Source: Betaproteobacteria bacterium TMED156 (GTDB lineage Bacteria; Pseudomonadota; Gammaproteobacteria; Burkholderiales; Burkholderiaceae_A). From it: a DNA stretch of 11,906 nt. Made by a program: the position numbers and the translations under genes. The stretch covers positions 1-11,906 of the forward strand of contig NHHF01000052.1 in assembly GCA_002171155.1 (NCBI GenBank), written 5' to 3'. The notes under the pieces were generated by a model. The model was not told the origin of the DNA. It saw only the letters and a program-made list of their open reading frames with translations, and did no database searches. Positions 1 to 11,906 of this stretch are shown one piece after another. The first letter of the stretch is position 1. Every line of letters begins with the position of its first letter.

Positions 1-1
1 A

Positions 2-235
2 ATGAAACAAAAAAAAGCATATAAATATAAAACTAAAAAATTTTATAATATAACACAAGAAATTAAAGATTATTTTAAAAATAAAGAAAAAGAATATTTA
101 GAATTTGATGATCACCCACTGTCTTCAACCTCTGATTTAATGGACCCTTCCAAGCCAGCTCCTTGGGATCACTTGACAAATACCGAAGATGATGAAGATA
201 TAGATATAGATATTCAAGAGTATATCAAAAAATGA
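2..235 (+). CDS. Small hydrophilic hypothetical protein
   Basis: I do not recognise this 77-residue protein. Its first third is rich in Lys and Tyr, with a likely amphipathic helix around residues 17-33. A Ser/Pro middle follows (PSKPAPWDH around residues 49-57), then a very acidic tail (EDDEDIDIDI) ending in IQEYIKK. There is no membrane segment and no Cys. The ATG is at base 2, so no upstream ribosome binding site can be seen; the real start could lie before the window and the gene may be 5'-truncated. Its stop overlaps the start of the next ORF by 4 bases (ATGA), suggesting translational coupling. AT-rich composition and codon use match the neighbouring genes. Confidence 0.6.
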   Translation: MKQKKAYKYKTKKFYNITQEIKDYFKNKEKEYLEFDDHPLSSTSDLMDPSKPAPWDHLTNTEDDEDIDIDIQEYIKK

Positions 236-414
236 CTTTTTTAGGATGGATGAACATGAATATGATATTAGATATATCGTTTCTTGTTTTTGCCGCGGCA
301 AGTGTATGGAAAATTAGAAAATTAGAAAAAAATTTATTATCTCTAAAAAATGACCTCTTACTAACAATGAGAAATCCTTCCGCTGCTAAAAGAAAGTTAA
401 AACAAAGAAAATAA
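232..414 (+). CDS. Small single-pass membrane protein, hypothetical
   Basis: This is a 60-residue protein with one hydrophobic segment at about residues 11-25 (MILDISFLVFAAASVW). A strongly basic helix with heptad-like Leu spacing follows (KIRKLEKNLLSLKNDLLL), then a Lys/Arg-rich tail. By the positive-inside rule the C-terminus would be cytoplasmic. The start is uncertain: the ATG at 232 overlaps the previous stop as ATGA, while ATGs at 250 and 256 are also in frame, and AGGA at 243-246 is about 9 bases before 256. The function is unknown. One-TM phage miniproteins of this kind include holin-like, spanin-like and host membrane modifiers, but nothing here decides between them. Confidence 0.6.
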   Translation: MTFLGWMNMNMILDISFLVFAAASVWKIRKLEKNLLSLKNDLLLTMRNPSAAKRKLKQRK

Positions 415-10870: not shown

Positions 10871-11554
10871 ATGAAGATTATAATGGAAAATTGGAGAAAG
10901 TTCTTGTTATTAGAACTTGACCCATCGATGGGTAGGATGACTGGCGCGCCCGGAGTAGTAATAGGTACTCCGGGAAAACCGGTGCCATCAGAGGAAGACA
11001 TAGATTCGTTTCTTTCAAGCTTGGGCACTGCAGTAGAAGTTGTTGATGCAGTATTTACAGTCGCTGCAATTGCATCGGGCGCCGGAGCTGTAGTAGTGAT
11101 TGGGAAAGAAATTGCAGAACAAGGCTTAAAACAAACTGTAAAATCTGGTATTAAAAAGTACGGAAAGAAACGATACAAAGAAAAACTTAAAAAAGAAATT
11201 AAAAAGAAAAAGCAAATGGACATAAAATTTCGTCCACCTAGAACAAATGTAAAACCAAAAGACATTGGCCAAGAAGAGCTTTTCAAAGCACAAGTAAGGC
11301 GTAACCGCGGTGAAGCTTTAAGCGATAGAGAAAAGGACATTTTAGATATATTAGATTGGAATCCGCGATCTTTAAAGAACCTTGAAACTGGCGTACATAT
11401 GGGCGCGGAGGTTGGAATAAAATCAGTGCACTGGAATGCTAGAAACAATCCTCTTTTTAAACGCATGAATCCTCAAGATGCTGAAGATGCAGCAAGAGAG
11501 TGGATAAAGGCACAAATCAAATTAAGAAAACAATTTCCGGAAACTTTCAAATGA
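10871..11554 (+). CDS. Phage protein with capsid-targeting-like leader, hydrophobic Gly/Ala segment and basic region
   Basis: The protein has 227 residues from ATG 10871. The frame is open from a TTG at 10841, but that lies inside the microprotein gene and would lengthen a leader shared with 8851. The leader MKIIMENWRKFLLLE matches the 8851 protein. Residues 54-78 are hydrophobic and rich in Ala, Gly and Val (AVEVVDAVFTVAAIASGAGA), long enough to cross a membrane, with small-residue spacing like a glycine zipper. Residues 93-116 are a Lys-rich helix. The C-terminal 110 residues are helical and charged (LSDREKDILDILDWNPRSL). The Shine-Dalgarno is weak (GAG at 10859-10861). I do not recognise a family. 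A packaged internal or membrane-interacting virion protein is inferred. Confidence 0.75.
   Translation: MKIIMENWRKFLLLELDPSMGRMTGAPGVVIGTPGKPVPSEEDIDSFLSSLGTAVEVVDAVFTVAAIASGAGAVVVIGKEIAEQGLKQTVKSGIKKYGKKRYKEKLKKEIKKKKQMDIKFRPPRTNVKPKDIGQEELFKAQVRRNRGEALSDREKDILDILDWNPRSLKNLETGVHMGAEVGIKSVHWNARNNPLFKRMNPQDAEDAAREWIKAQIKLRKQFPETFK
10877..10894 (+). repeat. Dispersed leader repeat, copy 2 (ATTATAATGGAAAATTGG)
   Basis: This is the partner of the block at 8863-8880, with one difference (C to T, silent between codons). The proteins encoded after it are unrelated, so similarity is confined to the leader. Confidence 0.7.
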
Positions 11555-11616
11555 TAGAGATAAGAGAACCAAAAAAAGCAAAGCCACCTAGGCCGATTAA
11601 ACCAGTTAGTGAATAA
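11551..11616 (+). CDS. Tiny Pro/Lys-rich ORF overlapping the preceding stop
   Basis: A 21-residue ORF begins at an ATG overlapping the previous stop (ATGA) and contains PKKAKPPRPIKP. Its stop is only 7 bases before the tmRNA. Coupled translation could make it a real peptide, but there is no independent ribosome site and the length is within chance. It may be a spacer. Confidence 0.35.
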   Translation: MIEIREPKKAKPPRPIKPVSE

Positions 11617-11670
11617 TTAATGTGGGGGTGACCAGGTTTCGACAGGGTAAGGATAATAATACGTGCAAGG

Positions 11671-11701
11671 CTGTGTGAGTGAGGTCACAGTAAAAACACT
11701 C
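11671..11701 (+). other. ssrA: tmRNA pseudoknot PK1
   Basis: CTGTG (11671-11675) pairs with CACAG (11686-11690), and GAGTG (11677-11681) pairs with CACTC (11697-11701). The strands interleave as an H-type pseudoknot just upstream of the tag, the position known to be important for resuming translation. Confidence 0.88.
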
Positions 11702-11713
11702 AAAACTATAAAT

Positions 11714-11761
11714 GCCAATGATGACATTGAAATTTTCGAGGACTTTGCGCTTGCCGCATAG
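11714..11761 (+). other. ssrA: tmRNA tag reading frame
   Basis: The tag starts at GCC (Ala) and encodes ANDDIEIFEDFALAA, then TAG. The ALAA end is the usual ClpXP-type degron. The AND start resembles the A-N-D of the E. coli tag (AANDENYALAA). The acidic, Phe-containing middle is longer than the E. coli tag. Confidence 0.92.
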
Positions 11762-11768
11762 TTCTTGA

Positions 11769-11804
11769 GGAGGTTTCCAGATACCTTCTTAACCGAACAT
11801 CTGG
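11769..11804 (+). other. ssrA: tmRNA pseudoknot after the tag (PK2-like)
   Basis: GGAGGT (11769-11774) pairs with ACCTTC (11783-11788) with one G-U pair. CCAGAT (11777-11782) pairs perfectly with ATCTGG (11799-11804). The strands interleave. Confidence 0.8.
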
Positions 11805-11810
11805 ATTTGT

Positions 11811-11834
11811 TATATTTGATACTATATTTGATAC
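11811..11834 (+). repeat. Perfect 12-base tandem duplication inside the tmRNA
   Basis: TATATTTGATAC occurs twice back to back (11811-11822 and 11823-11834). It fills the space between the PK2-like and last pseudoknots, where other tmRNAs usually have PK3. I see no stable fold in it. Confidence 0.85.
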
Positions 11835-11838
11835 TTAA

Positions 11839-11863
11839 TAGCTGTCTTGTGCTAGAACAAGAC
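11839..11863 (+). other. ssrA: Last tmRNA pseudoknot (PK4-like)
   Basis: GTCTTGT (11844-11850) pairs perfectly with ACAAGAC (11857-11863). TAGC (11839-11842) can pair with GCTA (11851-11854) in the loop, giving an interleaved pseudoknot. Confidence 0.72.
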
Positions 11864-11906
11864 TAACCTTGTGAACGACGTATTATTTGAGATGTTCTGG
11901 ACGCGG

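Follow-up and report, generated by a model that had tools for sequence, protein, structure and literature searches.

Phage-encoded tmRNA genes are already known, and the first-pass annotation described them as uncommon. This stands for isolates, among which the available text of one survey gives a frequency of 2.3% of phage genomes (402 of 18,146; PMC9004378), but in IMG/VR a single pattern scan gave at least 120 viral loci, with an ARAGORN tmRNA in 114 of 120, 100 of these permuted and 14 one-piece. The same survey, in its available text, counts 2.5% of the one-piece phage tmRNAs as marine (PMC9004378), and the available part of another source mentions ten phages with a tmRNA, of which one has just the tRNA-like domain (PMC4131195). 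The tmRNAs of the Bxz1-group and Wildcat mycobacteriophages, Bacillus phage G and Streptomyces phages are, like the gene described below, carried by phage genomes (available part of PMC4131195; annotated Streptomyces phage matches), but their tags, e.g., ANSNVASAYALAA, differ from its tag. In the same way, the Methylophilales phage Melnitz is a marine T4-like myophage with a tmRNA; however, its ssrA is two-piece (permuted), whereas the present one is one-piece (PMC9004378, available text). The two-piece tmRNAs of IMG/VR phages (ANDEKFALAA and similar) share with it a location on viral contigs and AND...ALAA tags. Unlike it, they are called as permuted by ARAGORN, and 46 of 100 loci carry, in the same orientation, a small-protein gene that searches did not reveal in G001-G004, four contigs related to the DNA analysed here.

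This DNA, hereafter the window, is a stretch of 11,906 nucleotides whose end (11624-11906, + strand) matches the tmRNA family RF00023 of Rfam (cmscan, 76.4 bits against a gathering threshold of 47, E 1.2e-28). The match is 3'-truncated and spans positions 1-350 of the 374 of the model, as the window ends inside the T arm. The order 5' tRNA-like domain, tag, 3' tRNA-like domain is non-permuted, model positions being collinear in the window (1-350) and in its relatives (1-374). ARAGORN, which had been proposed together with Infernal for checking the gene, made no tmRNA call on the window, as expected because the 3' end is missing. The features are the following:

451-1458, + strand: phage adenylosuccinate synthetase (PurA/PurZ-like), used to find related phages (PF00709, E 1.6e-83; phrog_1211; 50 viral relatives)
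10871-11554 (longest frame listed from 10841), + strand: ORF upstream of the tmRNA, without family match
11624-11906, + strand: one-piece tmRNA gene (ssrA), 3' end cut in the T arm by the window end (RF00023 match; full-length homologues in relatives)
11624-11630, + strand: acceptor stem P1, 5' strand (GGGGGUG), including G3 of G3-U70 (window letters; G-U at this pair in 12/12 complete aligned relatives)
11643-11670, + strand: P2, 5' strand (helices 2-4, 100% of cells paired on alignment A2)
11672-11701, + strand: pseudoknot PK1 (helices 5 and 6, with double changes at two pairs)
11714-11761, + strand: tag reading frame ANDDIEIFEDFALAA with stop TAG, resume codon GCC (reading of the window and codon alignment)
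11739-11765, + strand: P5; it overlaps the last part of the tag frame (helix 7, with double changes at one pair and 92.1% of cells paired)
11768-11805, + strand: pseudoknot PK2 (helices 8 and 9, with double changes at three pairs; cells paired, 90.1% and 100%)
11840-11862, + strand: last pseudoknot, PK4-like (helices 10 and 11, with double changes at four pairs)
11867-11899, + strand: P2, 3' strand (covariation alignment)
11903-11906, + strand: first four bases of the T arm, at the window end (cmscan match)

The window thus holds the 5' strand of the acceptor and four bases of the T arm, and the G-U pair itself was read in the complete relatives. A G3-U70 pair confers alanine identity. Compared with the bacterial one-piece tmRNA (RF00023), P2, PK1, the tag frame with P5 and PK2 are alike, as are P1 with G3-U70 and the T arm in the complete relatives, and the 3' CCA is encoded in 14 of the 19 relatives called by ARAGORN (counted by eye from gene ends). 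In contrast, PK3 was not seen in the window's group, which has an AT-rich linker at its place, before the PK4-like knot. The genes of this group are also shorter (302-311 nt for the 12 full-length members of alignment A2) than the other one-piece genes compared (348-393 nt), while three more distant members, L391, L393 and L399, are longer (347-354 nt).

The tag also differs from those of bacterial one-piece tmRNAs by its 15 residues. Its codons (11714-11761) are GCC AAT GAT GAC ATT GAA ATT TTC GAG GAC TTT GCG CTT GCC GCA TAG, and its end is hydrophobic. The first-pass annotation considered it longer and more acidic than common tags, which holds against most of the collected tags (10-13 aa); longer tags come from some doubtful ARAGORN readings and from L200 (18 aa). 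The latter (11317-11655) is another viral tmRNA, permuted according to ARAGORN, with the long acidic tag ANDESYTEDFEEEFALAA.

Relatives were found on IMG/VR contigs, where a degenerate tag pattern led to one contig and the window's adenylosuccinate synthetase (PurA) to 50 viral loci. Locus L001, on the 175-kb contig G001, has the same tag as the window and 269 of 280 aligned bases identical to it; its tmRNA is complete (310 nt, 127.2 bits with RF00023), with T arm, acceptor and encoded CCA. The 76-kb contig G002 (L002, also L387) also has a full tmRNA (124.7 bits) with T arm, acceptor and CCA, and the tag ANDDVETFEDFALAA. The T arm, acceptor and CCA, which had been expected just past the window end, are therefore seen complete in these two relatives. 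The looser pattern scan of viral contigs (at least 120 loci) added G003 (L226, tag ANDDVEIFEDFALAA) and G004 (L271, tag ANDDIEAMGEVALAA), the four tmRNAs scoring 124.7-127.2 bits. Furthermore, two scans with conserved stretches of these RNAs led to 23 distinct contigs, all 23 with a tmRNA gene, found by ARAGORN in 19 and by Rfam in the other four (three of them 5'-cut).

Sixteen distinct tags are encoded by 20 genes (window counted), among them ANDDVENFEDFALAA, ANDNVENFEDFAIAA, ANNDIEFEDYALAA, ANDNVEFDYALAA, ANTNTYVDYALAA, ANNDVELDNFAQAA and ANNNTHFEAARLAA. All 20 start with Ala-Asn and 15 with AND; 17 end with ALAA, including 10 of the 11 fifteen-residue tags, and three end otherwise. Tag length differs by whole codons (15, 14 and 13 codons in 11, 4 and 5 genes), and a middle part I/V-E-x-F-E-D is common to several relatives. 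Among the 11 fifteen-residue tags, 6, 3 and 11 of 16 sites are variable at the first, second and third codon positions, and pairwise differences are as often synonymous (135) as nonsynonymous (140) or nearly so, which suggests that constraint on the middle of the tag is loose: its ends are kept and its middle drifts.

Selection on the RNA was assessed on alignment A2, made of 13 of the 20 genes after leaving out the seven most different ones (L382, L383, L391, L393, L397, L399 and L400). The test structure, of 75 pairs, was written by hand on G001, and being drawn on one of the sequences favours it. Across the 13 genes, 97.9% of cells are paired, for 37-49% in slid versions of the structure. 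Double changes are seen at 14 pairs versus 8.1 in shuffles (0 of 500 shuffles as high), three of the 14 being in the T arm and all due to one swap common to L390, L396 and L398; the "further pair types" are below shuffles (31 versus 35.8). A five-sequence alignment gave a similar picture (9 double-change pairs versus 3.7). Covariation is seen in P2, P5, PK1, PK2, the PK4-like knot and the T arm, so that the three predicted pseudoknots PK1, PK2 and PK4-like are supported in the window's group. The parts that had been recognized from the letters (5' acceptor, P2, PK1, resume codon, tag with ALAA end, P5 and later pseudoknots) are therefore borne out by the RF00023 match and by covariation in relatives.

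In a tree of 120 one-piece genes, all from Pseudomonadota and viruses (131 one-piece calls before dropping duplicates and tags beginning with V, G or E), the four phage genes of G001-G004 form their own clade with a support of 0.999. The tmRNA gene of the window has no match in INPHARED at E 1e-5. At E 1, 218 records match the tmRNA of L001, and the 25 listed are all Streptomyces, alike only over bases 261-308 (85%). A literature search for the tag string "EDFALAA" found no paper. As phage tmRNAs are known, and considering the lack of INPHARED match at E 1e-5 and the separate clade, the window tmRNA is, judged from its sequence, a distinct family of a known kind.

We consider, with a probability of about 85%, that this is a selected one-piece tmRNA gene of a T4-like phage, working as an ordinary tmRNA with host factors. 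The phage is probably lytic and marine. During infection, the phage tmRNA would be charged with alanine by the host AlaRS and would enter stalled ribosomes with the host SmpB (no SmpB was found on the phage contigs searched). The 15-residue tag would then be added to the stalled proteins, and host ClpXP would most likely degrade them, because the tag keeps the AND start and the ALAA end. The benefit for the phage could be that ribosome recycling is kept up while phage and host messages are cut and turned over.

It was proposed for the gene of mycobacteriophage DS6A, which has the tRNA-like domain only, that such an RNA dampens host trans-translation, and the phage tmRNA could likewise mainly occupy SmpB and stalled ribosomes. 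A molecule resembling that of DS6A is a strong inhibitor of tmRNA, possibly through titration of SmpB (available part of PMC4131195). SmpB and Gp23 were searched on 21 of the 26 family contigs (all except L389, L392, L394, L395 and L411), and SmpB was found on none of these 21 records, several of which are fragments. However, a sponge would not need the mRNA part, whereas this part, the tag frame, the stop, PK1, PK2 and the PK4-like knot are all kept, with covariation and whole-codon length changes. An interfering role thus appears improbable.

There is likewise little reason to expect that the special tag leads to another fate, such as a phage ClpP-containing protease or delayed breakdown. 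All four tmRNA phages (G001-G004) carry genes of the ClpP family, which in G002 and G004 lie some 5 kb downstream from the tmRNA gene, and the middle part of the tag is shared by several relatives. However, ClpP is nearly as common in related contigs without tmRNA above the cut-off (11 of 13, many of them fragments) as in those with it (4/4), the best PHROG matches of the two phage ClpPs scanned are head maturation proteases, and ALAA is the conserved part of the tag. The steering to a different protease suggested by the first-pass annotation therefore finds no support, and a private module made of the tag and the phage ClpP was rejected, as ClpP is not specific to tmRNA carriers.

A phage location of the gene agrees with that of its relatives. 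Their tmRNA genes lie inside viral contigs at 149680-149989 of 175011 (G001), 22069-22376 of 76181 (G002) and 75359-75664 of 158282 (G004), with that of G003 lying 3.5 kb away from the end of its contig. In G001, the tmRNA is flanked by a tail-protein match on one side and a phrog_1238/polynucleotide kinase match on the other; in G002, PhoH is downstream and genes like those of the window are upstream. The continuation of phage genes downstream, which had to be looked for beyond the window, is thus observed in relatives, and PHROG matches are found upstream of the tmRNA in the window itself. T4-type Gp23 is present on 10 of the 21 family records searched and on 9 of the 10 that reach at least 120 kb, the exception being G004, in which no match was obtained. 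The G001 Gp23 has its nearest relatives, at 41-51% identity and each over less than 80% of the query, in an uncultured phage, Flavobacterium phage immuto, a Microcystis phage and RM378. A search confined to the tyrosine integrase family PF00589 was negative in all four related contigs (G001-G004). BLAST of the L001 tmRNA against 398 Pseudomonadota genomes gave a match in 176 of them; none of the matches listed is full-length, all covering 27-72 bases at the 3' end. Considering the viral contigs, Gp23 and the lack of PF00589 (4/4) and of SmpB (21/21), the window tmRNA is very probably a phage gene, as first annotated, rather than a host ssrA beside a prophage. That the gene is a host ssrA serving as a prophage attachment site, followed by bacterial genes past the end of the window, is very improbable: ssrA is a known integration site (PMC9004378 and PMC12656738, available parts) and the window stops within the gene, but the tmRNAs of G001, G002 and G004 are well inside viral contigs, with phage-type genes beside them in G001 (both sides) and G002, PF00589 is absent in 4/4 and no listed match in the 398 genomes is full-length.

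Some features of these contigs bear on the host and habitat. SD-like motifs precede 51-65% of the long ORFs in G001-G004 versus 11-17% in shuffled sequences, which argues for a host that uses SD. A tag-pattern scan of cellular genome contigs gave at least 120 loci, mostly Betaproteobacteria; since the pattern demands a FALAA-type end, it does not name the host. Tara entries among the homologues of the ClpP and PiT genes of G002 suggest that the phages are marine, as do the IMG samples of these contigs, which we take to be marine. Hardly any organisms are named among the matches of the PiT transporter.

Other genes of these genomes deserve mention. The PHROG of the window's PurA-like gene (451-1458), phrog_1211, is described as "2-aminooxy adenylosuccinate synthetase". 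A TilS-like PP-loop gene (PF01171) is carried by all four contigs and adjoins a tRNA with a CAT anticodon in the three scanned (G001-G003); coordinates are 7672-8372 of L059 for G001, 6127-6827 of L062 for G002, 1224-1298 of L226 with the PP-loop match at 1397-1891 for G003, and 79908-80402 for G004. This tRNA, called Met by ARAGORN, is read here as a putative tRNA-Ile2 with its own lysidine synthetase. In G004, the start of a GroEL-like chaperonin gene (L307 3141-3539, by eye) lies beside one of the two ClpP genes.

Some members of the family have exchanged parts of the tmRNA gene. In L390 (506-810), L396 (508-815) and L398 (1815-2117), the D-loop segment and the T arm, about 270 bases apart, are replaced together, the mRNA part is nearly unchanged from the family and no CCA is encoded. 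An endonuclease VII/HNH-type gene is found about 60-70 bases after the tmRNA in L403 (632-1150), L411 (195-713), L396 (3-440), L398 (2179-2718) and L392 (11104-11640), and not in L390. It has PHROG matches (endonuclease, endonuclease VII, HNH) and no Pfam match. Recombination at the tmRNA locus, perhaps driven by this endonuclease, would explain both these swaps and the inner protein gene that follows.

A scan for a variant 5' end led to L402 (2808-3261) and L403 (117-565), whose tmRNA genes of 454 and 449 nt score 96.7 and 114.3 bits with RF00023 and have no ARAGORN tmRNA call. Both keep P1, P2, PK1, the tag, P5 and PK2. In both, the place expected for PK4, after PK2 and before the 3' strand of P2 (helices read by eye), is taken by a 61-aa frame with its own Shine-Dalgarno sequence (AAGGAG, seven bases before the ATG) and a stop TAA within the P2 strand CTAACCTTGT. 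A third contig, L411 (1-127), starts inside the same 61-aa frame and shows the 3' part of the tmRNA. Most differences between L402 and L403 fall in the D-loop segment, around the tag start and in the T arm plus 3' end, and the frame itself differs by a single base, so the two are taken as one event. In L402 the T loop is unusual and the 5' end is repeated once upstream, so its tmRNA gene may be decaying. The 61-aa protein has 8 homologues (44-100%) and no Pfam or PHROG family, and a search of literature titles, in itself weak evidence of novelty, found none on a protein gene inside a tmRNA among those listed. We tentatively propose that the tmRNA gene of this phage lineage can at the same time host a protein gene. 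One RNA, if still functional, would then carry both a tag frame and a full message, and the protein may influence phage trans-translation.

Small proteins of the same family as this 61-aa protein are also encoded beside phage two-piece tmRNAs. They have about 60-100 aa, many with a FEIRLELLKMAK motif, and their genes are downstream of the phage tmRNA genes on the same strand; the members scanned have no Pfam or PHROG name, and the two compared with INPHARED have no match. The family profile gave 49 matches: 46 of the 100 permuted viral loci (among L185-L304), L402, L403 and L304, this last being one of the 6 of 120 loci without ARAGORN tmRNA. At the permuted loci, all 46 genes are on the same strand as the tmRNA and 45 are downstream, the exception being L275. 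The profile matched none of the 14 one-piece loci, the cell loci L065-L184, L003-L051 or G001-G004.

In a reverse test on the closest 80 of at least 424 relatives of the small protein, an ARAGORN tmRNA was found in 52 of 80 loci and in 32 of the 41 that have 4.3 kb or more of upstream sequence; the tmRNA is always on the same strand, -6 to 2750 bases before the gene. Rfam adds a tmRNA in 3 of the other 9 (35/41), which leaves 6 without tmRNA. Sixteen of the 80, including 11 of the 41, each of these 11 with a tmRNA, overlap or nearly repeat loci of the first survey; without them, the count is 24 of 30. Within the sampled group, these gene positions firmly associate the small-protein gene with an upstream phage tmRNA. 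This may be functional or reflect inherited gene order, as one related group was sampled.

These data add a distinct one-piece tmRNA family in T4-like phages, marine one-piece genes being rare in the survey cited above, as far as its available text goes (PMC9004378). The 16 distinct tags in 20 genes make it possible to compare side by side what a phage wants from trans-translation, and such tags could serve in metaproteomes as a sign of infection. The relatives with an inner gene allow a test of how large an insert a tmRNA can take, and the small-protein family allows one of whether phages encode a protein partner for their tmRNA.
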